From: Pseudomonas sp. GOM6
GTDB lineage: Bacteria > Pseudomonadota > Gammaproteobacteria > Pseudomonadales > Pseudomonadaceae
Reading direction: 5' to 3'
Length of the DNA stretch: 64,000 bases
Assembly: GCF_029537485.1 (NCBI RefSeq)
Contig: NZ_JARPUS010000007.1
Span: 62,001-126,000, forward strand
Part shown: positions 6,578 through 17,590 of the stretch, piece by piece
Layout: each line of letters starts with the position of its first letter
How positions within the stretch are numbered: the first letter of the stretch is position 1
Translations under genes and position numbers: made by a program
The notes under the pieces: generated by a model
The model's input: the letters and a program-made list of their open reading frames with translations, nothing else
Told to the model about the DNA's origin: nothing
The model's database searches: none

Positions 6578-7312
6578 TTAGAACAGTGCCAGGACCAGCA
6601 GCACTGCACACTCGACCAGCTCCAGCAGTGCACCGGCCGTATCCCCCGTGGTGCCTCCCAGGCGGGCGAGAAAGGCACGCCGCAGCAGCCAGAACACCAG
6701 GGCCGCCGCCAGCAGCGCAAGCACTGCACTCCAGCTCAGCAGCAGCATGGCCAGCCCGTGCGTCGCCAACACCCAGGGCAGGCGCTCGCGGGGCAGATGT
6801 TCGCTCAGCGCCGCCCCCAGACCGCCGGCACGCACATAGGGCGTGGTCATCAGCAACAGTGGCAGCACTGACCGCCCCAGCCAGGGAGCCAGCAACAAGC
6901 CGGCCCAGGCGCCCTGCTCCAGCAGCACCACCAGCGCGGCGAACTTGAGCAGCAACACCAGCACCAGCAGCACCACGGCAATCGGCCCGCTGCGCGGGTC
7001 CTTCATGATCGCCAGGGTGCGCTCACGGTCGCCATAGCCGCCCACCCAGGCATCCGCCGTGTCGGCCAGACCATCGAGATGCAGGCCACCGGAGAGTCCG
7101 ACCCAGACCGCCAGCAGAATCGCCGCCTGCAGCAAGGGCAGTGTCATGCCGAGCACGACATGCAACCCCAGTAGCAGTGCGCCAATCAGCACCCCGACCG
7201 CCGGATACCAGAGCAGCGAGCGGCCGACCTGCTCGGGCGCAGGCATGCCCGGCAGGCTCACTGGCAGGCGGGTAAGGAACTGCAGGGCAATGAGCGCCGG
7301 CAGCGGCAACAT
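6578..7312 (-). CDS. cobS: Adenosylcobinamide-GDP ribazoletransferase (CobS/CobV)
   Basis: This 244-residue integral membrane enzyme joins adenosylcobinamide-GDP and alpha-ribazole (or its phosphate), the last assembly step of cobalamin. The diagnostic cytoplasmic segment reads GGLHLDGLADTADAW, then RERTLAIMKD and RSGPIAVV (about residues 74-113), which holds the acidic Mg-binding residues. The rest is strongly hydrophobic with at least six helices. Its ATG shares one base with the stop of the preceding phosphatase gene (TGATG). It is the last cob gene of the operon; 95 bases separate it from the MarR-type gene. Confidence 0.95.
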   Translation of the reverse strand: MLPLPALIALQFLTRLPVSLPGMPAPEQVGRSLLWYPAVGVLIGALLLGLHVVLGMTLPLLQAAILLAVWVGLSGGLHLDGLADTADAWVGGYGDRERTLAIMKDPRSGPIAVVLLVLVLLLKFAALVVLLEQGAWAGLLLAPWLGRSVLPLLLMTTPYVRAGGLGAALSEHLPRERLPWVLATHGLAMLLLSWSAVLALLAAALVFWLLRRAFLARLGGTTGDTAGALLELVECAVLLVLALF

Positions 7313-7884
7313 CAGGCTTCGCTCAGGGCCAGATTGGCGCCGACCTGCAGGCCATGCAGCGCGCCGTACCCGACCTCCACCTGCAGCAGCTGGCTCTCCG
7401 GCAGGCCACGGGCGCGCGCCAGCAGCAGGCGCATCACCCCGCCATGGGTCACCAGCAGCACGCGCTGGCCCGCCAGCTCAACCTGCAGACGCTCGACAGC
7501 GCCGAGTACGCGGTTGGCGAAGTCACGCACCGGCTCGGCTTCGGGCGGTGTGAAACCATAGGGATCGTTCCAGAACTGGCCCAGGGCCTCGGGATCTTCC
7601 AGAAGGATTTCCGCCGAGTTGCGCCCTTCCCAGGCGCCGAAATGCAGCTCGCGCAGGTCCGCGTCGATGCGCAGCGGCAGGCTATTGCCTTCGGCATATT
7701 GCGCGGCGAAGACGGCGCAGCGCTGCAGCGGCGAGCTGATCACCAGGTCCCAGCCAGCCTGGCCGGCCAACGCATCGTGCATTTGTTGGTAGCCCTGCTC
7801 GCTCAGGGCATCGTCGCTGCTGCCGCGAAAACCGGGGCCAGCCACGGTGGTGCCGTGACGCAGCATATCCAGGAAAAGAGTCAT
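7312..7884 (-). CDS. cobC: Alpha-ribazole phosphatase / histidine phosphatase (CobC type)
   Basis: This 190-residue protein belongs to the phosphoglycerate-mutase-like histidine phosphatases. The phospho-accepting His lies in LRHGTT (residues 8-13), the acid-base Glu in LHFGAWEGR, and the second His in [14 protein letters not shown]. In this position it most likely removes the phosphate from alpha-ribazole-5'-phosphate or from adenosylcobalamin-5'-phosphate. It overlaps cobT upstream by four bases (ATGA) and cobS downstream by one. The assignment within the large superfamily rests mainly on context. Confidence 0.88.
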
Positions 7885-8936
7885 GAACGGTCCTCGACCA
7901 GTGCTTCGGAAAAGGTTGCCATGCTGCCGTGCAGCGCACAGGCCAGCTTGATCAGCGGCAGTGCCAGGGCCGCGCCACTGCCCTCGCCCAGGCGCAGGCC
8001 AAGGTCGAGCAACGGCTCGGCACCCAGCTCGGCAAGCACGGCGGCATGGCCCGGCTCGGCGCCGGCATGGGCGAACAGCAGCCAGGGTTGCACACCGGGG
8101 TTCAGGCGTAGCGCGCAGAGCGCCGCGGCCGAGCAGATAAAGCCATCGACCACGGCCGCAATGCCGAGCTGGGCGCAGGTCAGGTAGGCACCGGTCAGGG
8201 CCGCCAGCTCGAAGCCACCAACCCGGCGCAAGGCTTCGAACGGCTCACCCAGCTGCGCGCCGTGCAGCGCCAGGGCGCGCTCGATCACGGCCTGCTTGTG
8301 ACGGACGCCGGCGCTATCCAGCCCGGTGCCGGGGCCGGTCAGCTGCACCGGCGTCAGATCACTCAGGGCGCAAGCCAACGCCGTGGCGGCGCTGGTATTG
8401 CCGATGCCCATCTCGCCGGCGAGGAACAGGTCGCAGCCGGCGGCCTGGGCCTCCAGCACGCTATCGCGACCGGCCTGCAGCGCGGCCCTGCATTGCTCGG
8501 CAGTCATCGCCGCGTCGACGGCGAAGTTGGCGGTGCCGGAGCCCAGGCGCAGGTGGCGCACACCGGGCAGCTCCAGCTCGGGATCGATGGTGCCCAGATC
8601 GATCAGGCGCAGCGGCATGCCCTGCTCGCGCGCCAGCACGCTGACGGCCGCACCACCGCTGACAAAGTTGGCCAGCATCTGCGCGGTGACTGCCTGCGGG
8701 TAGGCAGACACACCCTCGGCCACCACCCCGTGGTCGCCGGCGAACAGGGCCAGCTGCGGGTTGCTGATCACCGGCTTCTCCCGCCCCTGCAACGCGGCCA
8801 GGCGCACGGCCAGCGTCTCCAGCGCACCGAGGGCGCCGGTCGGTTTGGTCAGCTGCGCCTGGCGCGCCAGGGCGGCGGCCTCAGCTATGGCATCAGGCTG
8901 GCGGCAAGGTTCTTGCCACCAGATTGCAGCGGTCAT
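7881..8936 (-). CDS. cobT: Nicotinate-nucleotide--dimethylbenzimidazole phosphoribosyltransferase
   Basis: This 351-residue enzyme (cobU in the P. denitrificans naming) activates the lower ligand DMB to alpha-ribazole-5'-phosphate. It carries the family block [18 protein letters not shown] and, near the C-terminus, [13 protein letters not shown], whose Glu is the expected catalytic base. [16 protein letters not shown] in the N-terminal half is also characteristic. The length matches the family. Its start overlaps the cobU stop by four bases and its stop overlaps the phosphatase start by four, consistent with coupled translation. Confidence 0.95.
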
Positions 8937-9454
8937 AACGGCTCTCCTTTGAGCAACATGGGCAGGCCGGCCACGCAGAACTGCACGCGCTCGGCGCGCT
9001 CGGCCACCGCCTGGTGCAGCCAGCCGGCCTCATCGACATAGCGGCGGGTCAGCTCGCCCAGCGGTACCACGCCCAGGCCGGTCTCGTTGCTGACCAGGAC
9101 GATGCGACCCGGCAGCTCGCCCAGGCTCTCCAGAAAGGCATCGCGCTGCATGGCCAGGCGAGTGTCGTCGTCCAGCATCAGCAGATTGGTCAGCCACAGG
9201 GTCAGGCAGTCGACCAGCAGGCAGCGCTCGGGCGCGGCGTGCTCGCGCAGCACCCGGCCCAGCTCGATGGGCTCCTCGACCAGTGCCCACTCGGCCGGAC
9301 GCCGTTCGCGGTGATGGGCGATGCGAGCGCTCATTTCGCCATCCAGCGCCTGGCTGGTGGCGATATAGGTGACGGCCAGGCCGCTTTGAATGGCCAGCTT
9401 CTCGGCCAGGCGGCTCTTGCCGGAGCGTGCGCCACCGAGGATCAGATCAAGCAT
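8933..9454 (-). CDS. cobU: Bifunctional adenosylcobinamide kinase/guanylyltransferase (CobU/CobP)
   Basis: This 173-residue protein phosphorylates adenosylcobinamide and transfers GMP to make adenosylcobinamide-GDP. The P-loop is at the very N-terminus (LGGARSGKS, residues 6-14), followed by [10 protein letters not shown], which should hold the guanylylated His, then [14 protein letters not shown] and ETGLGVVP. The ATG at 9454 is chosen because it places the P-loop at the normal position; open frame upstream of it has no family character. The gene begins 70 bases after the cobQ stop, with a REP palindrome in between. Confidence 0.95.
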
Positions 9455-9494: not shown

Positions 9495-9528
9495 GCATCG
9501 CGGCTGAAGCCGCTCCCACAACAGCTAC
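9495..9528 (-). repeat. REP-type palindrome between cobQ and cobU
   Basis: Read on the minus strand, a GTAG (9528-9525, containing the cobQ stop) is followed after 11 bases by the stem GCGGCTTCAGCCGC (9500-9513) inside GTGGGAGCGGCTTCAGCCGC, the familiar Pseudomonas REP core. It fills the only long gap in the cobB-to-cobS chain. Confidence 0.75.
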
Positions 9529-10979
9529 AGCCCGCATAGCTCGCGGAGCTTGCGGGTGTCCAGATGCGCCTCGACCAGATCGGCCAGGCGCTCGATATCG
9601 CGTTCGCGGCGGGCATGGTAATCCACCTGCCGCGCCTCGCGCAGGCCGGCCCAGCGCAGCAACGCAGCACAGGCCGCCGGTTGTTCGAATACGCCATGCA
9701 GGTAGGTGGCCATGACCTGGCAGTCGGCGCTGATGGCGCCATCACAGCGACCATCGTCCAGTTGCACCGCGGGCGAAGCGAGCGCCGGGCCATGGCTGAC
9801 CCCGGCATGAATCTCGTAGCCGCTGACCGCCAGCCCCTCCAGCGTCAGTTGCCCACGCACATTGCGCAGCTGCTTCTCCGGCTCCAGCACCGTGGTGTAG
9901 TCGAGCAGGCCGAGACCAGTGCTGCTGCCAGCCTCGCCTTCCAGGCCATGGGGATCATCGATGCGCATGCCGAGCATCTGCAGGCCGCCGCAGATACCGA
10001 GAACCTTGCCGCCGTAGCGCAGGTGGCGGGCGATGGCGGCGTCCCAACCCTGCTCGCGCAGGCGCGCCAGGTCGGCACGCACGCTCTTCGAGCCGGGCAG
10101 GATGATCAGGTCGGCCGGCGGGATGGCCTGACCGGGGCCGATGAACTGCAGATCCACCTGCGGGTGCAGGCGCAGCGGGTCGAAGTCGGTGTGGTTGCTG
10201 ATCCGCGGCAGCACCGGCACGGCCACGCGCAGGACTTCCTGTTCCTTGTCCGGCTGCAGCACCTGCACCGCATCCTCAGCTTCCAGATGGAAGTCCATAA
10301 GGTACGGCAGCACGCCGAGCACCGGCTTGCCGGTGCGTTGCTCCAGCCAGTCCAGCCCGGGCTGCAGCAGGGCGATGTCACCGCGAAAGCGGTTGATGAC
10401 GAAGCCCTTGATCCGCGCCTGCTCACTCGGCGCAAGCAGTTCCAGGGTGCCGACCAGGTGGGCGAACACGCCGCCCTTGTCGATATCGGCGATCAGTATC
10501 ACCGGACAATCCACCGCCTCGGCAAAGCCCATATTGGCGATATCGCCTTCGCGCAGATTGATCTCGGCCGGCGAGCCGGCGCCCTCCACCATCACCACCG
10601 GGTACTGTGCGGCCAGGCGCGCATGGGATTCGAGCACCGCCTCGCGAGCGACCCGTTTGTAGTCGTGGTAGGCCACGGCATGCATGTTGCCGATGGCGCG
10701 ACCGTGGATGATCACCTGGGCGCCGGTGTCGGAATTGGGCTTGAGCAACACCGGGTTCATATCGGTGTGTGCTTGCAGCCCTGCGGCCTGGGCCTGCACC
10801 GCCTGAGCACGGCCTATTTCGCCGCCATCGGCGGTCACCGCGCTGTTCAGCGCCATGTTCTGCGGCTTGAACGGCACCACGCTGACGCCCTGGCGCTTGA
10901 GCCAGCGGCACAGGGCGGTCACCAGGGTGCTCTTTCCGGCATCGGAGGTGGTGCCCTGGACCATGAGTGTCGCAGTCAC
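9525..10979 (-). CDS. cobQ: Cobyric acid synthase (CobQ/CbiP)
   Basis: This 484-residue amidotransferase amidates the b, d, e and g side chains of adenosylcobyrinate a,c-diamide. The N-terminal synthetase part has [12 protein letters not shown] and [10 protein letters not shown]; the C-terminal class I glutaminase domain has the nucleophile in [10 protein letters not shown] and the catalytic His in [10 protein letters not shown] start it at the GTG at 10979, which overlaps the previous stop as GTGA, matching the operon pattern; the longer open frame upstream lies inside cobD. The TAG stop belongs to a GTAG that borders a REP palindrome. Confidence 0.95.
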
Positions 10980-11959
10980 GAACGGTACTCCTTGAGTGCC
11001 TGCTCCAGCCGGGCCCAACCCGCCTCGTCGCCCGGCAGACCGAAACGCAGTCCTGGCGGCGCAGTGATCAGCCGCACCAGAATGCCGCGCCGGGCGAGGA
11101 ACGCGTGCAGCTCGGGCGGCCGCTCGTGCAGCACCAACTGGAACAGCGAGGTGCCGCCCGCCGGAGGCAGGCCGAACTGGCTGAGCAGCACCGCCAGGCG
11201 CAGCCCGTCGGCCTGCAGGCGCTGGCGCTGATACGCCTGTTGCGCACCATCCAGCAACGCAGCACGCGCCACCTCGCGGGTCGGCCCGGCCACAGCCCAG
11301 GGGCCAAGCTGTTCATCCAGCCGCGCCAGCAGTGCCGGCTCGGCCAGCACAAAGCCCAGGCGCATACCGGCCAGGCCGAAGAACTTGCCGAACGAGCGCA
11401 GCACGATCAGCCCCGGCAGCTGGCTATGGGCAGCCATGCTCAGCTCGGGCGTACAGTCGATAAAGGCTTCGTCCACCAGCAGCCAGCCACCGCGCGCGGC
11501 CAGCTGCGCCTGCCAGCTCAGCAAGAGTTCCGGCTCGATCCGCCGCCCAGCAGGGTTGCCGGGGTTGACCACGACCAGCACGTCCAGGCGCTCCAGCGCA
11601 CGATGCACGGAGCCTTCGCTGATCTCCTGCAGGCGATGGCCCTCGCGGCGCCAGGCCTGGGCATGTTCGGCATAGGCCGGTGCGACGATGCCGACCCGCG
11701 ACTCGCCACGCAGCCGCGGCAGCACCTGGATGGCCGCCTGCGAGCCGGCGACCGGCAGCAGCGCCTGCACGCCGTAGTAGTCGCGCGCGGCGGCTTCCAG
11801 GCCATCGTCCAGTTCCGGCAGGCGATTCCAGGCGCCCGCCGAAATCGTCGGCAGCGGCCAGGGATAGGGCGCGATGCCGGTGGACAGGTCCAGCCACTGG
11901 TTCAGTTCGATGCCGAATTGCTGCGCCGCCAGGCGCAAACGACCGCCATGCTCAAGCAA
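10976..11959 (-). CDS. cobD: Threonine-phosphate decarboxylase (CobD; CobC in P. denitrificans naming)
   Basis: This 327-residue PLP-dependent, aminotransferase-fold enzyme makes (R)-1-amino-2-propanol phosphate, the linker of the nucleotide loop. It has [14 protein letters not shown] at the N-terminus, [11 protein letters not shown] in the middle and the PLP-lysine motif [16 protein letters not shown] (about residues 187-202). It overlaps cbiB upstream by eight bases and cobQ downstream by four. The gene name differs between naming systems; the function is clear from the family and context. Confidence 0.93.
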
Positions 11960-12857
11960 GCCAGGCTCCTCCCACGCTCAATACCAGCAGCCACAGGCCC
12001 ACGCCGGCATACACCAGATTCAGTGCCCGGTCGATATCCCGCGCCTGCGCCTCGGTACCCTCGCCCAGCTGCGGGCGCTGTTCCTCGATGCCGTGGTAGA
12101 CCGCCGCGCCCCCCAGGCGCACTCCCAGCGCGCCGGCACCGGCAGCCATCACCGGGCCGGCGTTGGGGCTGTCCCACAGCGGCGCCTGAACGCGCCAGCA
12201 ACGCAGCGCGCGGGCAGTCTGGCCGAGCAGCGCATAGGTCAGTGCCACCAGGCGTGCCGGCACGTAATTGAGCACATCGTCGATCTTCGCCGCCACCCAG
12301 CCGAAGCGTTCGAAACGCTCGTTGCGATAGCCCCACATGGCGTCCAGGGTATTGCTCAGGCGATACAGCACCACGCCCGGCGCACCGAGCAGGCAGAACC
12401 AGAACAGCGCGGCGAAGACGGCATCGGAACCGTTCTCCAGCACCGACTCGGTGCCGGCGCGGGCCACGGCGGTGGCGTCCAGCTCGCGGGTGCGGCGGCT
12501 GACCAGGTAGCCGACGCGCTGGCGCGCCTCGTCCAGCTGTCCCAGGCGCAGGGCCTGGGCCACCGGCAGCGCGTGCTGGGCCAGGCTTTTAAGACCCACG
12601 GCGAAATACAGGGCAAGGACCTCGACCAGCCAGCCCAGGCTGGAAAGACTCAGCAGCCAGACCAGCGCCACCGCCGGCAGCACGGCCAGGCACCAGCCGG
12701 TGACACCGTGGCTGCGCCAGCCACGCCCGCCGGCATTGAGACGCTGCTCGATACGCTGGGCCAGGTTGCCGAAACCCACCAGCGGGTGCCAGCGTCGTAG
12801 CTCGCCGAGCCAGGCATCCAGGCCCAGCCCGGCCAGTACCGCCAGTACCAGGCTCAT
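11952..12857 (-). CDS. cbiB: Adenosylcobinamide-phosphate synthase (CbiB; CobD in P. denitrificans naming)
   Basis: This 301-residue polytopic membrane protein attaches the aminopropanol phosphate made by the next gene's product to adenosylcobyric acid. Family segments include [15 protein letters not shown] near residue 25 (E. coli-type P-x-x-x-x-G pattern), [19 protein letters not shown], and [21 protein letters not shown], followed by [10 protein letters not shown]. At least four hydrophobic helices are visible. Its start overlaps the bluB stop by four bases. Confidence 0.94.
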
Positions 12858-13501
12858 CGCTGTCCCCAGCTGTCGGTGAACAGCAGCTCCGCCAGCGGTC
12901 GCTCCTCGGCCCAGCCCTCCTCCACCAGCATCGGCCGCTCATAGAACTCATGCACCGGCCCCAGGCACAGCACCGCCACCGGCTGGCTGCCGGCCGGCAT
13001 GCCGAGCAGCTCGCCCAGGGCCTCGGGCTCGAACAGCGACACCCAGCCCATGCCCAGACCCTCGGCACGCGCCGCCAGCCAGAGGTTCTGGATGGCGCAG
13101 CTGAGCGAGGCCAGGTCCATCTGCGGCAAGGTCCGGCGGCCGAACACATGGGCCTCGCGGCCGTCCATCAGCGCCGCCACCAGCAGTTCGGCGCAATCGC
13201 GGATGCCCTCGACCTTGAGCCGCATGAATTCGTCGCTGCGCTCGCCCAGGGCCTCGGCGGTGCGTACACGCTCGGCCTCGGCCAGGCCATGAATGGCCTC
13301 GCGCAGCGGCGGTCGGGTAATGCGAATAAAGCGCCAGGGCTGCATCAGGCCGACGCTGGGCGCCTGGTGCGCCGCCGCCAGCAGGCGCTGCAGCAGCTCC
13401 GGCGCCACCTTGCCACCGGCGAAGTGGCGCATGTCGCGGCGCTCGGCAATGGCGCGGTAGATGGCGGCGCGCTCCTCGGGGCGGTAGGCGTGATCGGTCA
13501 T
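12854..13501 (-). CDS. bluB: 5,6-dimethylbenzimidazole synthase (BluB)
   Basis: This 215-residue nitroreductase-fold flavoenzyme cuts FMNH2 with oxygen to make DMB, the lower ligand of B12. It begins [20 protein letters not shown], then [32 protein letters not shown], which is diagnostic of BluB, and ends [21 protein letters not shown]. Its presence shows that the host can make its own DMB aerobically for the CobT encoded four genes downstream. It overlaps cobB upstream and cbiB downstream by four bases each. Confidence 0.95.
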
Positions 13502-14790
13502 GGCAGCAATAGCTCGGCCGCCGCCCGCGGGTTGGACGGCAGGTAGAAGTGGATGTAGGACGCGGTGAGGCGCCCTATCTGGTAGACCGCTTCGGCTGTG
13601 CGTCGCTGATTGGGGCAGGCGCCCCTGGCGCTGGGCTGCAACCGGCAGTCCAGCGTCGAATGGTGGTAAGTATGCCCGCGCAGGCGGCCCTGCGGCAGCT
13701 CGACTTGCTGCAACGCCAGCGCGGCCAGGCGCGGCTGCATCCTCGCCGCGCCCGGTAGCAGCCCGACCAGTTCGGCACGTTCGCCCTGTTTGTCAGTCAG
13801 TGCCTGCAGCAGATAGAGCATGCCGCCGCACTCGGCGAGGATGGGTTTGCCCGCCCTGTGATGCTCACGAATCGCCGCCAGCATCGGCTGGTTACCGGCC
13901 AGCTGTTGCAGGTGCAGTTCCGGGTAGCCGCCGGGCAGGTACAGGCTATCCACCGCCGGCAGGGTAGCGTCCGTCAGCGGCGAGAAGCACACCAGTTCGG
14001 CGCCGAGCGCCTGCAGCAGGTCGAGGTTGGCCTGGTAGAGGAAGGCGAAACTGCTGTCGCGCGCCACGCCGATGCGCACACCGCGCAGCCAGGGTTCAAG
14101 CGGTGCGGCGGATGGCGCGGCAAAGTTCACCGGCGCCGGCAGCACGGCCCCGGCGCTGGCCAGCAGGGCGTCGGCGGCGGCATCCAGACGCGCATCCAGA
14201 TCAGGCAGCTCCTCGGCCTGCACCAGGCCCAGGTGGCGGCTCGGCAGTTCCATCTCGCCGCTGCGCGGCAAGGCGCCATACCAGGACAGCGCCTCTGGCA
14301 GACAGGCACGCAGCAGCTCGGCATGCGTGGCGCTGCCGGTGCGATTGGCCAGCACGCCGGCAAAGGGCAGGTCCGGCTGGAAACTGGCCAGACCATGGGC
14401 CACGGCGGCGAAAGTCTGCGCCATGGCGCTGGCGTCGATCACGCCGAGTACCGGCACGCCGAAACGCCGCGCCAGGTCGGCTGCCGAGGGCTGGCCGTCG
14501 AACAGCCCCATCACGCCTTCGATCAGGATCAGGTCGGCCTCCCCCGCCGCCTGCCAGAGCAGACGCCGCGACTCGGCCTCGCCGACCATCCACAGGTCGA
14601 GCTGGTACACCGGCGCGCCGCTGGCGCGCTGCAGGATCATCGGGTCGAGAAAATCCGGGCCGCACTTGAACACCCGCACCCGCCGCCCGGCCCGCACATG
14701 CAGACGCGCCAGTGCGGCGGTGACGGTGGTCTTGCCCTGACCGGATGCCGGGGCGGCAATCAGCAGGGCCGGGCACGCGCGCACCGCCAT
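13498..14790 (-). CDS. cobB: Cobyrinate a,c-diamide synthase (CobB/CbiA)
   Basis: This 430-residue glutamine-dependent amidotransferase amidates the a and c carboxylates of (hydrogeno)cobyrinate. The N-terminal domain has ALLIAAPASGQGKTTVTAAL and FKCGPDFLDPMILQRASG; the C-terminal glutaminase has the nucleophile Cys in ILAECGGMLYLLQALTD, preceded by YLPGGYPELHLQQL, and the His in SYIHFYLPSNP. The ATG at 14790 is chosen because it sits directly before the P-loop and shares one base with the preceding stop (TGATG). The open frame further upstream runs through the btuM gene and is not part of it. Confidence 0.95.
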   Translation of the reverse strand: MAVRACPALLIAAPASGQGKTTVTAALARLHVRAGRRVRVFKCGPDFLDPMILQRASGAPVYQLDLWMVGEAESRRLLWQAAGEADLILIEGVMGLFDGQPSAADLARRFGVPVLGVIDASAMAQTFAAVAHGLASFQPDLPFAGVLANRTGSATHAELLRACLPEALSWYGALPRSGEMELPSRHLGLVQAEELPDLDARLDAAADALLASAGAVLPAPVNFAAPSAAPLEPWLRGVRIGVARDSSFAFLYQANLDLLQALGAELVCFSPLTDATLPAVDSLYLPGGYPELHLQQLAGNQPMLAAIREHHRAGKPILAECGGMLYLLQALTDKQGERAELVGLLPGAARMQPRLAALALQQVELPQGRLRGHTYHHSTLDCRLQPSARGACPNQRRTAEAVYQIGRLTASYIHFYLPSNPRAAAELLLP

Positions 14791-15359
14791 CAGCCGACGA
14801 CTCGTGGCTTCACGCCGCCAGCCGCGCGCCAGCCGACATACAGCAGGCTCGCCATGCCGACATACAGCGCCATGTTGCCGAGAAAGCGCGGGTAGTAATG
14901 GCCGATGCGCGGCAGGAAGCCGGCCAGGCTCGGCTCCGGGTAACGCCCGGAGACGAAGTAGAAACCGCCGCTGGACAGCAGGTGGCAGATGAAGGCGGCC
15001 ACCAGCACGGTCACCGCCAATACCACCAGGCTGGCGGCCTGCTCGCGATGCCAGCCGGCATACAGCCGGCCGCCCAGCCATAACGCGGCGTAGGCCGGCA
15101 CCAGCATCCAGTAGGCGGACGAGGTGCACCAGTCACTGACGCTGCCGCTGGCGACCATGCCGAAGTCCAGCAGCGTCGCCAGGGCGAACAGCGCCGGGAA
15201 CACCCAGCGCGGGCGCAGCAGGACGCCGGCAAGGAAGAACACCGCCCAGCTGGCGCTGGGCAGGTTCAGCGTGGCGAAGTGCTGGCCGCGGGTCACAGCC
15301 ATCAGCAGGGCCAGCAGCAGGCCAATCAGCAGCTGGTTGCGAGTGGAAAGTACCGGCAT
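14790..15359 (-). CDS. btuM: BtuM-like cobalamin transporter (solitary S-component-type membrane protein)
   Basis: This 189-residue protein has about six hydrophobic helices. The N-terminal half has TLNLPSASWAVFFLAG followed by LATLLDFGMVASGS and SDWCTSSAYW, with Cys at residue 78. This pattern and Cys position match what I remember of the BtuM family, whose characterised member from Thiobacillus denitrificans resembles an ECF S-component, lacks a dedicated ECF module, and uses a Cys near residue 80 to bind and decyanate cobalamin. It lies between btuB and cobB. An AGGAGAT ribosome site precedes the ATG, 15 bases after the btuB stop. Family assignment is by recall; the context supports it strongly. 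Confidence 0.8.
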   Translation of the reverse strand: MPVLSTRNQLLIGLLLALLMAVTRGQHFATLNLPSASWAVFFLAGVLLRPRWVFPALFALATLLDFGMVASGSVSDWCTSSAYWMLVPAYAALWLGGRLYAGWHREQAASLVVLAVTVLVAAFICHLLSSGGFYFVSGRYPEPSLAGFLPRIGHYYPRFLGNMALYVGMASLLYVGWRAAGGVKPRVVG

Positions 15360-15374
15360 GACGGATCTCCTAAC

Positions 15375-17240
15375 TTAGAGCGCTTGGTAGCGCAGGGTGA
15401 CATAGAAGACACGACCGGGCTGTTCGTAGGTCTGCGCGGTTTCGTAGTCGCGGTCGAACAGGTTGCTGATCTTGGCCTGCATGCGCCATTCGGCATCGAT
15501 GTGGTATTCGCCACGCAGGTCCACCAGGGCATAGCCCGGCAGGCGCGATTCCTCGTCGTTGCTGGCGGAGTCGAAGCGCTGGCTGGCGGCGAACAGGGTC
15601 GCGCCGACGCCGAAGTCACCCAAACGGCGATCCGCATCCAGGTTGAAGGTGCGCTTGGCCCGCCGCGCCAACTGGTGGCCGTGGTTCTGCGCGCTGCGGT
15701 CCTGCGGGTCGAGCAGGGTCAGGGTGGCGGCCAAGTCCCAGTCCGCCAGTTGTGTGCGGGCCATGGACTCCAGCCCGCGAATGCGCGCGGACTCGACGTT
15801 CTCTGGGCGCATCGGGCTGCTGCCGGCCCAGACGATCAGGTCGTCGATCTGGTTCTCGAAGGCGTTCAGGCTCCACTCGCCCCACCCTGCGGTACCTCGC
15901 AGGCCGATCTCATAGTTTTCCGACTCCTCCGGTTTGAGCTCCGGGTTGCCGGCGGTATAGCTGCTGGCCGGGTAATAGAGGTCGTTGAAGGTCGGTGCAC
16001 GGAAGGCCGTGCCATAGGCGGCGCTGAGGGTCAGGCTGTCGCTGAGGTCGTAGCTCCAGCCGAGGTTGCCGGTATCGTGGTCGCCGTACTGCTGGTTGTC
16101 GTCGCGACGCAGGCCGAGAGTCAGGCCATGGCGACCAAAACGGCCCTGATACTGGGTGTAATAACCGCGATTGAAGCGCGAATCTTCGGCATAGACGTCC
16201 GAGGTGTCGATGCGGTCCTGCTGGTAGTCGAAGCCCAGGGTCAGCAGCTGATCGTCGCTCAGGCCGAAATCGTTCTGCCAGCCCAGCGAGTCGCGCTCGC
16301 TATCGAAGCGCGAGTAGAAACGGCCATCCTGGTAGTTGTCGCTGCGCTCTTCGCTATGCCCGGCCTGCAAGGTGACCTTCCAGGCGTCAAGGGGGTTGAA
16401 GCGGGCACGCCCGCCGAGCACCTGTTGCTCGCCATCTGAGTATGCGTCGCGACCGCTGGTGCCGCGCGAACTGCGACTGTCGAAGTCGCTGTGGGTATCG
16501 CCCTGCAACCAGTTGCCGTCCAGCTCCAGGCCGTTATCGAAGCGCAAGCCGCCACGCAGTGAGGCAGAAAGCTGGCGGTAGCCATCGTTGTCCGCCTCGT
16601 AGGCGTTAGGCGCTGTGGATCGATAGGCACGGGCGTTGATGCCAGCGGTATCCTCGCTACTGACCCCCAGGTCGAACCAGCCACGGCCATTCCCCCCGGC
16701 CACGCCGGCAGTACCGCTGTAACTGGAGCGGCTGCCCGCACCCAGCGAAAGGTAGGGTTTGAAACCCTCGCCCTGACCACGCCGGGTGAAAAGCTGGATC
16801 ACCCCACCCAGCGCCTCTGAACCATAGAGTGCCGAGCGCGGGCCGCGCACCACTTCGATACGCTCGATCAGTCCCAGGGGAATGTCCTGCAATGCAGCAC
16901 TGCCGGAAGTAGCAGAGCCGATCCTGACGCCATCGACCAGCACCAGCAGTTGTTTGTCGCTGGCGCCACGCAGGTATAGCGAGGTGCTCTTGCCGCGCCC
17001 GCCATTGCTGGCGATCTGCACACCAGCCAGGCCACGCAGCACTTCGGGCACCGAGGTGGCCTGGCTGCGCTCGATGTCGTCACGGGTGATCACGCTGCTG
17101 GAAGCAATTGCCACCAGCGGGGTCGCGGTACGGGTAGCAGTGACCACCTGCCGATCGAGATTGAGAGGGTTCGCCTGCACGGCAAAGGGGGCAAGGCTGA
17201 ACAGCGCGCACGCCGCCAGCCGCAAATCGGACTTGCTCAA
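15375..17240 (-). CDS. btuB: TonB-dependent vitamin B12 receptor (BtuB)
   Basis: This 621-residue outer membrane receptor starts at a TTG, 9 bases after GGAG. The signal peptide (residues 1-23) ends in FAVQA. The mature N-terminus carries a TonB box-like DRQVVTATRTATP, then the plug (VLRGLAGVQIASNGGRGKST, LYLRGASDKQLLVLVDGVRI, GLIERIEVVRGPRSALYGSEALGG) and a barrel ending in YVTLRYQAL. The plug and size match BtuB, and the cobalamin riboswitch upstream defines the ligand. The TTG is preferred over the longer open frame, which runs through the riboswitch. It leads the cob operon. Confidence 0.95.
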   Translation of the reverse strand: MSKSDLRLAACALFSLAPFAVQANPLNLDRQVVTATRTATPLVAIASSSVITRDDIERSQATSVPEVLRGLAGVQIASNGGRGKSTSLYLRGASDKQLLVLVDGVRIGSATSGSAALQDIPLGLIERIEVVRGPRSALYGSEALGGVIQLFTRRGQGEGFKPYLSLGAGSRSSYSGTAGVAGGNGRGWFDLGVSSEDTAGINARAYRSTAPNAYEADNDGYRQLSASLRGGLRFDNGLELDGNWLQGDTHSDFDSRSSRGTSGRDAYSDGEQQVLGGRARFNPLDAWKVTLQAGHSEERSDNYQDGRFYSRFDSERDSLGWQNDFGLSDDQLLTLGFDYQQDRIDTSDVYAEDSRFNRGYYTQYQGRFGRHGLTLGLRRDDNQQYGDHDTGNLGWSYDLSDSLTLSAAYGTAFRAPTFNDLYYPASSYTAGNPELKPEESENYEIGLRGTAGWGEWSLNAFENQIDDLIVWAGSSPMRPENVESARIRGLESMARTQLADWDLAATLTLLDPQDRSAQNHGHQLARRAKRTFNLDADRRLGDFGVGATLFAASQRFDSASNDEESRLPGYALVDLRGEYHIDAEWRMQAKISNLFDRDYETAQTYEQPGRVFYVTLRYQAL

Positions 17241-17272: not shown

Positions 17273-17351
17273 ACTGCGGGATAAGGCGTTGGGAGAACGA
17301 ACGGAAACGCGGCAGCCGCGCCCGGCGCCGCCCTCCGCAATGCCGTGGATT

Positions 17352-17552
17352 GCGACAGGCCGGTCTCCGGGCTCGTGAGCCAAGCCATGCGGCTTGCGGG
17401 CCGCGCCTTCCCATGCCGGAGCACAGTGGCGGGATGCGACCTTTGACTCACCTACCGTTGCGGGGGCAGCGCCGGAATGGTGTTGCGATTACGCAGCACG
17501 CACCGGCTTCCCTGTTTCACCCCTCGACCGCATGCGGCGGGGGCACCTGAAG
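17352..17552 (-). promoter_or_regulatory. Cobalamin riboswitch (adenosylcobalamin aptamer)
   Basis: On the minus strand the conserved blocks follow in order: TTCAGGTGCCCCC, CAGGGAAGCCGGTG, TTCCGGCGCTGCCCCCGCAA, GCCACTGTG, ATGGGAAGGC and the B12 box GAGCCCGGAGACCGGCCTGT. The aptamer lies in the leader of btuB. The region between it and the TTG start (17241-17351) contains two G/C-rich hairpins and no T-tract, so control is probably translational. It should lower btuB expression, and perhaps that of the whole cob operon, when adenosylcobalamin is plentiful. Confidence 0.97.
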
Positions 17553-17561
17553 CAGGCGCGC

Positions 17562-17590
17562 AGCTTAGTGGCCGAGCCTGACGCGGTCAA
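17562..17590 (-). promoter_or_regulatory. Sigma-70-type promoter of the btuB-cob operon
   Basis: TTGACC (17590-17585) and TAAGCT (17567-17562) are separated by 17 bases on the minus strand. Transcription would begin a few bases before the riboswitch. Confidence 0.65.

Follow-up and report, generated by a model that had tools for sequence, protein, structure and literature searches.

BtuM is an S-component-like cobalamin transporter. According to excerpts of the study of the T. denitrificans protein (TdBtuM; PMC6072759), it allows an E. coli host that has no energy-coupling factor (ECF) module to grow in a B12-dependent manner, and a C80S substitution abolishes this growth. The same excerpts report decyanation by TdBtuM, that it binds cobinamide with sub-micromolar affinity and decyanates it, that it mediates hydroxocobalamin uptake in a growth assay, and that BtuM hosts are without an ECF module, with one exception. 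Here, we analyzed a btuM operon in a 64,000-nucleotide stretch of Pseudomonas sp. GOM6 (assembly GCF_029537485.1, contig NZ_JARPUS010000007.1, positions 62,001 to 126,000; hereafter the window). We consider it highly probable (about 0.85) that this is a riboswitch-led corrinoid salvage operon which imports through BtuB and BtuM, with adenosylation in trans.

Comparison with Described Systems

The window BtuM shares family, fold, cysteine and pocket residues with TdBtuM, both are linked to btuB, and neither host has an ECF-T component, as far as the excerpts of PMC6072759 describe TdBtuM. However, those excerpts place btuR beside btuM in T. denitrificans and in most hosts, whereas the only cobO of the window's genome is on another contig and belongs to a distant CobO clade. 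Azotobacter chroococcum (L103) is similar in that riboswitch, btuB, btuM and late cob genes form one chromosomal cluster, with a second btuB elsewhere (excerpts of PMC4465626). In that organism cobO follows btuM and the corrin-ring genes are on a plasmid, whereas in the window's genome cobO lies elsewhere and CobN, CobK and CobH were not found. The BtuFCD importer does the same inner-membrane job as BtuM but, unlike it, is an ATP-binding cassette (ABC) transporter with a binding protein and an ATPase.

BtuM and btuM-bearing salvage clusters have already been published, including BtuM in a Stutzerimonas isolate (excerpt of PMC10378866), and the novelty here is modest. The locus is an instructive gene arrangement of a known system, namely a btuM operon without an adjoining cobO. 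Searches of open-access papers with the terms used turned up none that deals with btuM operons lacking cobO or with the foreign-type cobO described below. The mechanism of solitary S-component B12 transport has been called unclear (excerpt of PMC11109136), and trapping by the adenosyltransferase encoded beside btuM has been proposed (excerpt of PMC6072759). The operon has no such adenosyltransferase gene in four cases, namely the window's genome, Pseudomonas sp. BMS12, P. insulae and Stutzerimonas kirkiae, which offer ready comparisons for the trapping idea.

BtuM and the Predicted Cobalt Site

The initial annotation, made from the sequence alone, named the 189-residue protein behind btuB as BtuM, and our searches bear this out. 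Against a library of solved structures, phmmer matched the protein to BtuM (8c7p/8ovv) with an E-value of 3e-47 over residues 4-179 of 189, and the next match had an E-value of 0.68. A 36-sequence profile of the window BtuM gave an E-value of 5.8e-62 for the same entries. The AlphaFold model from 36 sequences (pLDDT 89.4, pTM 0.88) was closest to 8c7p and 8ovv (TMq 0.85 and 0.83, 47% identity), followed by the S-component FolT (4z7f, TMq 0.48). Its helices, six of 11-37 residues and a short one at 76-79, are those of a predicted S-component fold. The Pfam profile search proposed in the annotation was uninformative: scans of Pfam and NCBIfam returned no family for this protein, so neither library can be used to decide BtuM membership. 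By homology and predicted fold, the protein is a genuine BtuM.

The motif SDWCTSSAYW with Cys78, and the second motif quoted in the annotation, are present as described. Cys78 aligns with chain position 80 of the solved BtuM, and from the Cys80 numbering we infer that 8c7p/8ovv is the same protein as TdBtuM. Residues H27, D65, C78, Y83 and R151 are invariant in 103 of 103 aligned BtuM rows and correspond to H28, D67, C80, Y85 and R153 of TdBtuM by the offset of the alignment. The rows comprise the window, nine loci of the genus sample (a draw of 199 genomes, ten of them BtuM-positive including that of the window, G000), 80 named loci (the best 80 of 267 relatives from a genome scan) and 13 tandem copies; six genomes are present twice. 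Thus, Cys78 falls at the cobalt site in the alignment, as the annotation had anticipated, and is the predicted cobalt-ligand cysteine. By analogy with TdBtuM, the window BtuM would transport and decyanate cobalamin.

Tandem btuM copies occur in 13 of the 80 named loci, all from Lysobacteraceae or Rhodanobacteraceae (L084, L099, L107, L109, L110, L118, L121, L123-L126, L128, L129). Identity to the window BtuM is 37-43% for the upstream copy, and the cysteine is kept in both copies. BtuM homologues of 40-45% identity, annotated as hypothetical or unannotated, also adjoin cobO on megaplasmids of the alphaproteobacteria Novosphingobium and Croceicoccus (H16-H18).

Operon Structure and the Position of cobO

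Eleven minus-strand genes follow a cobalamin riboswitch, and the order of riboswitch, btuB, 189-residue protein and cobB given in the annotation agrees with the RF00174, open reading frame (ORF) and profile matches. The features, in window coordinates, are as follows.

17341..17565, minus strand: cobalamin riboswitch aptamer RF00174 at the operon head (90.6 bits, full-length match 1-189)
15375..17240, minus strand: btuB, TonB-dependent outer-membrane B12 receptor, 621 aa (TIGR01779, 686 bits, cut-off 599.7)
14790..15359, minus strand: btuM, S-component-like cobalamin transporter, 189 aa (homology to solved BtuM)
13498..14790, minus strand: cobB, cobyrinic acid a,c-diamide synthase (NCBIfam, 452 bits, cut-off 254)
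12854..13501, minus strand: bluB, 5,6-dimethylbenzimidazole (DMB) synthase (NCBIfam)
11952..12857, minus strand: cobD/cbiB, adenosylcobinamide-phosphate synthase (Pfam and NCBIfam)
10976..11959, minus strand: cobC, threonine-phosphate decarboxylase type (NCBIfam)
9525..11018, minus strand: cobQ, cobyric acid synthase (ORF taken from the first possible start)
8933..9454, minus strand: cobP/cobU, adenosylcobinamide kinase/guanylyltransferase
7881..8936, minus strand: cobT, DMB phosphoribosyltransferase
7312..7884, minus strand: alpha-ribazole phosphatase-like gene (147 bits, under the cut-off of 162.9)
6578..7312, minus strand: cobS, adenosylcobinamide-GDP ribazoletransferase

The riboswitch is the sole RF00174 match at the gathering threshold in the window (gathering score 31.5, E-value 4e-21). 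The TTG start of btuB at 17240 was picked by eye. btuB and btuM are 15 bp apart, and the TGA stop of btuM overlaps the ATG start of cobB (TGATG). Judging from spacing and strand, the genes from btuB to cobS are likely to form one transcript.

No cobO lies between btuM and cobB in the window. The annotation placed btuM where cobO would be expected; however, btuM does not occupy the place of cobO, which starts within 150 bp after btuM in 76 of the 80 named loci. The four named loci without cobO behind btuM belong to Pseudomonas sp. BMS12, P. insulae, Stutzerimonas kirkiae and Azomonas agilis, the last having no cob gene match in the flank examined around btuM. Within the genus sample, seven of the ten BtuM-positive genomes have btuB-btuM-cobO-cobB, and the other three, those of the window, BMS12 (G148) and P. 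insulae (G027), have btuB-btuM-cobB. These three are thus without the usual but non-defining trait of btuR/cobO beside btuM. Among 35 BtuM-negative loci, cobO precedes cobB in all 35 and btuB was detected within about 1.4 kb upstream in one, so btuB-cobO-cobB is not the usual order there. Replacement of cobO by btuM is not favoured, because btuB-btuM-cobO-cobB is so widespread. In a simple history, which as far as the trees show may also have run the other way, btuB-btuM would have been added in front of a cobO-cobB operon, with later loss of cobO in the lineage of the window.

In Stutzerimonas kirkiae (L101:4883-6895), no cobO lies between btuM and cobB, possibly through a separate loss. Azotobacter vinelandii CA (L072) has a btuM match of 67% identity between btuB and cobO; in an excerpt of PMC4465626, strain DJ of this species is described as having a btuB fusion and no btuM.

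The Adenosyltransferase Gene at a Second Site

The annotation expected a cobO or pduO elsewhere in the genome, and both exist. A genome search gave one cobO, on contig C47 (C47:14936-15580; PF02572, E-value 3.6e-60), which passes NF004637 (263 bits, cut-off 185), has the P-loop GNGKGKS and is accompanied by its own RF00174 cobalamin riboswitch. A PduO-type gene is present in this genome and in all 20 genomes tested.

The C47 CobO is 93% identical to that of BMS12, 81% to that of P. insulae and 79% to that of G123. CobO was matched in 19 genomes, and the remaining 15 have the operon type, to which the C47 protein is 52-58% identical; the twentieth genome, G014, had no CobO match. Operon-type CobO of the BtuM-positive relatives in the genus is 84-96% identical to the CobO of G185. 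Identity of neighbouring genes alone is insufficient to judge CobO origin, since comparison with the seven relatives that keep cobO in the operon gives the other operon proteins values from about 52% (BtuB) and 55% (phosphatase-like) up to 84%. In a CobO tree of 124 rows, the proteins of the window's genome, BMS12, P. insulae and G123 form a clade (branch 1.39, support 100/100, bootstrap not fully settled) apart from all sampled operon-type CobO of Pseudomonadaceae, Lysobacteraceae, Rhodanobacteraceae, Methylophilaceae and others. The C47 protein is, by identity and tree position, a foreign-type or anciently separate CobO. We rejected the idea that it is the moved operon gene, given this low identity and separate clade. 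As for a plasmid source, all 159 plasmid records compared were below 60% identity.

Opposite-strand, back-to-back pairs of cobalamin riboswitches lie by the foreign-type cobO at L173:3229-3763 and L172:10230-10736 (G123 and P. insulae).

Salvage versus De Novo Synthesis

CobN, CobK and CobH each gave no match in the search of the window's genome, whose assembly is rated 100% complete. Because these three are absent, the operon looks like corrinoid salvage and not like the end of de novo synthesis. The annotation had described uptake as controlled together with late biosynthesis; the late cob genes are indeed in the operon, but they appear to serve salvage.

CobH was found in 186 of the 199 genus genomes. 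It is missing from nine of the ten BtuM-positive genomes versus four of the 189 BtuM-negative ones (Fisher's test, p = 6e-12, kinship ignored). The exceptions are G075, with both BtuM and CobH, and G014, G076, G082 and G180, with neither. In BMS12, CobK and CobH were not found and CobN is kept. A CobB tree of 46 rows implies about four changes of each trait; the independent pairs number two on supported branches and four on all branches, with a sign-test p-value of 0.5-1. The association of BtuM with CobH loss is thus a pattern, not proof, and common descent may account for much of it; once this tree was considered, the use of BtuM as a statistical marker of salvage was not upheld. The window's genome and BMS12 group with four BtuM-negative, CobH-positive genomes (support 95), apart from the other BtuM-positive ones, and P. 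insulae is placed differently by the CobB and CobO trees. As read from the CobB tree, the operon head could reflect gain, loss or transfer.

Possible Other Inner-Membrane Routes

The annotation described BtuM as working without a dedicated ECF or BtuCDF module, and the genome searches are in line with this. ECF-T (CbiQ/EcfT, PF02361) was matched in none of 11 genomes, and controls were matched in 10 of 14. In the window's genome, no BtuF or BtuC passed the B12 cut-offs; a long frame on contig C2 was not profiled, and BtuD was not searched genome-wide. BtuM may therefore be the only dedicated inner-membrane route in this genome.

In BMS12, the nearest relative, the foreign-type cobO is directly followed by btuF-, btuC- and btuD-like genes. 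In P. insulae, it is followed by btuF/C/D-like genes, a DUF1636 gene, a CobW-like gene (named by eye) and cobN. The btuFCD-like names derive from context (riboswitch, adjoining cobO in BMS12) and from profile scores under the B12 cut-offs, which in BMS12 are 25/234 bits for BtuF, 233.2/334 for BtuC and 149/281 for BtuD. The window's genome and BMS12 stay collinear as far as 20 bp past the stop of cobO, with about 91% nucleotide identity, and then diverge. A tblastn search found no btuFCD-like remnant beside the C47 cobO in the stretch examined. G123, which also has the foreign-type cobO, gave no convincing btuFCD-like match across the 12-kb contig concerned, and a search of its whole genome gave no BtuC-like match. 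Because P. insulae and BMS12 share gene order, loss of the btuFCD-like genes in the window's genome is the more economical reading, though among the four genomes two have them and two do not.

Among genomes without CobH, BtuM and btuFCD-like genes occur singly or together. G082 and G180, negative for BtuM and CobH, have btuB-cobO-cobB and carry btuFCD-like genes at a distance of about 6 kb from this operon, and the encoded proteins are 87-96% identical to those of G069, which also has BtuM. Relatives with BtuM only, btuFCD-like genes only, or both offer comparisons for the origin of corrinoid salvagers in a genus of B12 makers.

Proposed Mechanism and Alternatives

Cobalamin riboswitches respond to adenosylcobalamin (AdoCbl) as feedback. 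Building on the genes, riboswitches, homology, conserved pocket and search misses above, we propose a mechanism whose transport, decyanation, trapping, regulation and sole dedicated route through BtuM are predicted. BtuB would carry cobalamin or cobinamide across the outer membrane. BtuM would bind the corrinoid base-off, with the Cys78 thiolate on cobalt, probably strip cyanide, and, needing no ECF module, move the corrinoid across the inner membrane. CobO, encoded on the other contig under its own riboswitch, and/or PduO would adenosylate the corrinoid and so trap it. BluB with CobC, CobD, CobP, CobT and CobS would rebuild the nucleotide loop, and CobB with CobQ would finish incomplete corrinoids. 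AdoCbl would presumably close both riboswitches, at their separate places.

Several observations pull against this picture. MetE is present in the window's genome, and therefore B12 need not be essential for methionine synthesis; the assembly consists of 48 contigs. BtuC-like matches exist in the genome, one at contig C12 (45% identity to the BMS12 gene) and two halves in the long C2 frame, which looks FhuB-like from its length. The best NCBIfam hits of the C12 permease are BtuC models, under their cut-offs (273.7/461 bits; NF003001, 272.5/334 bits), and on NF003001 it outscores the btuC-like gene of BMS12 (272.5 vs 233.2 bits). At contig C3 there is also an orphan BtuF-like gene (138 bits, cut-off 234). 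This gene is convergent with a second btuB-like receptor behind another cobalamin riboswitch (L175:6758-9824), whose score of 468 bits is under the TIGR01779 cut-off of 599.7.

A narrower version of the salvage reading holds that the lone BtuM is the sole dedicated inner-membrane importer after loss of a btuFCD-like cassette, with the trap supplied in trans by the cassette-associated foreign-type CobO and kept in step by the second riboswitch. If true, the lineage would offer a natural experiment on whether a solitary S-component depends on its linked adenosyltransferase for transport. We hold it tentatively, at somewhat less than even odds, because the C12 permease outscores the BMS12 gene and G123 has a foreign-type cobO without btuFCD-like genes. 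The same two points raise the standing of the view that BtuM is redundant and that an ABC system does most uptake, be it the C12 permease, the FhuB-like frame at C2, or the orphan BtuF-like protein working with a permease of another system. The C12 scores, the C2 frame and the orphan gene near the second riboswitch-led btuB favour such a system, as does the co-occurrence in relatives, since BMS12 and P. insulae have BtuM with cobO-linked btuFCD-like genes and G069 has BtuM with another btuFCD-like set. However, the C12 genes sit in a heme-type operon, flanked by a TonB receptor that passes the heme cut-off (473 vs 316.9 bits) and by a frame that matches HutX weakly (23.6 vs 110), and the BtuF-like match at C12 reaches 39 of 234 bits. 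Moreover, no BtuC or BtuF cut-off is passed in this genome, and the BMS12-type genes are missing at the equivalent place. On balance, we regard a redundant BtuM as rather unlikely, though the C12 permease is a live candidate for a B12 permease.

BtuM could also feed salvage chiefly by binding and decyanating cobinamide or other corrinoids, transport being a secondary role. The cobinamide binding and decyanation of TdBtuM, together with the cobinamide-to-cobalamin branch of the operon, agree with this; but TdBtuM mediates hydroxocobalamin uptake, and if a decyanase facing the periplasm did no uptake itself, some importer would still be required; we regard such a role as improbable. It is less probable still that the organism makes B12 de novo and that a gap in the assembly alone accounts for the missing early genes. 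The late genes, cobB among them, are intact and CobH is common in the genus, but none of CobN, CobK and CobH is present in the assembly, rated 100% complete, and the close relative BMS12 also is without CobK and CobH, though it keeps CobN.

A BtuF-Like Gene in Other btuM Operons

In 30 of the 80 named btuM operons (L055, L065, L068 and 27 more; L016-L018, L020), a BtuF-like gene lies between bluB and cobD; it is missing from the window operon. PF01497 was found in the one tested, and the loci mostly have no btuC or btuD match. In 11 of the 30, with the N-terminus placed by script, the protein begins directly with the mature domain, and a signal peptide is not evident. It may thus be a cytoplasmic corrinoid binder.

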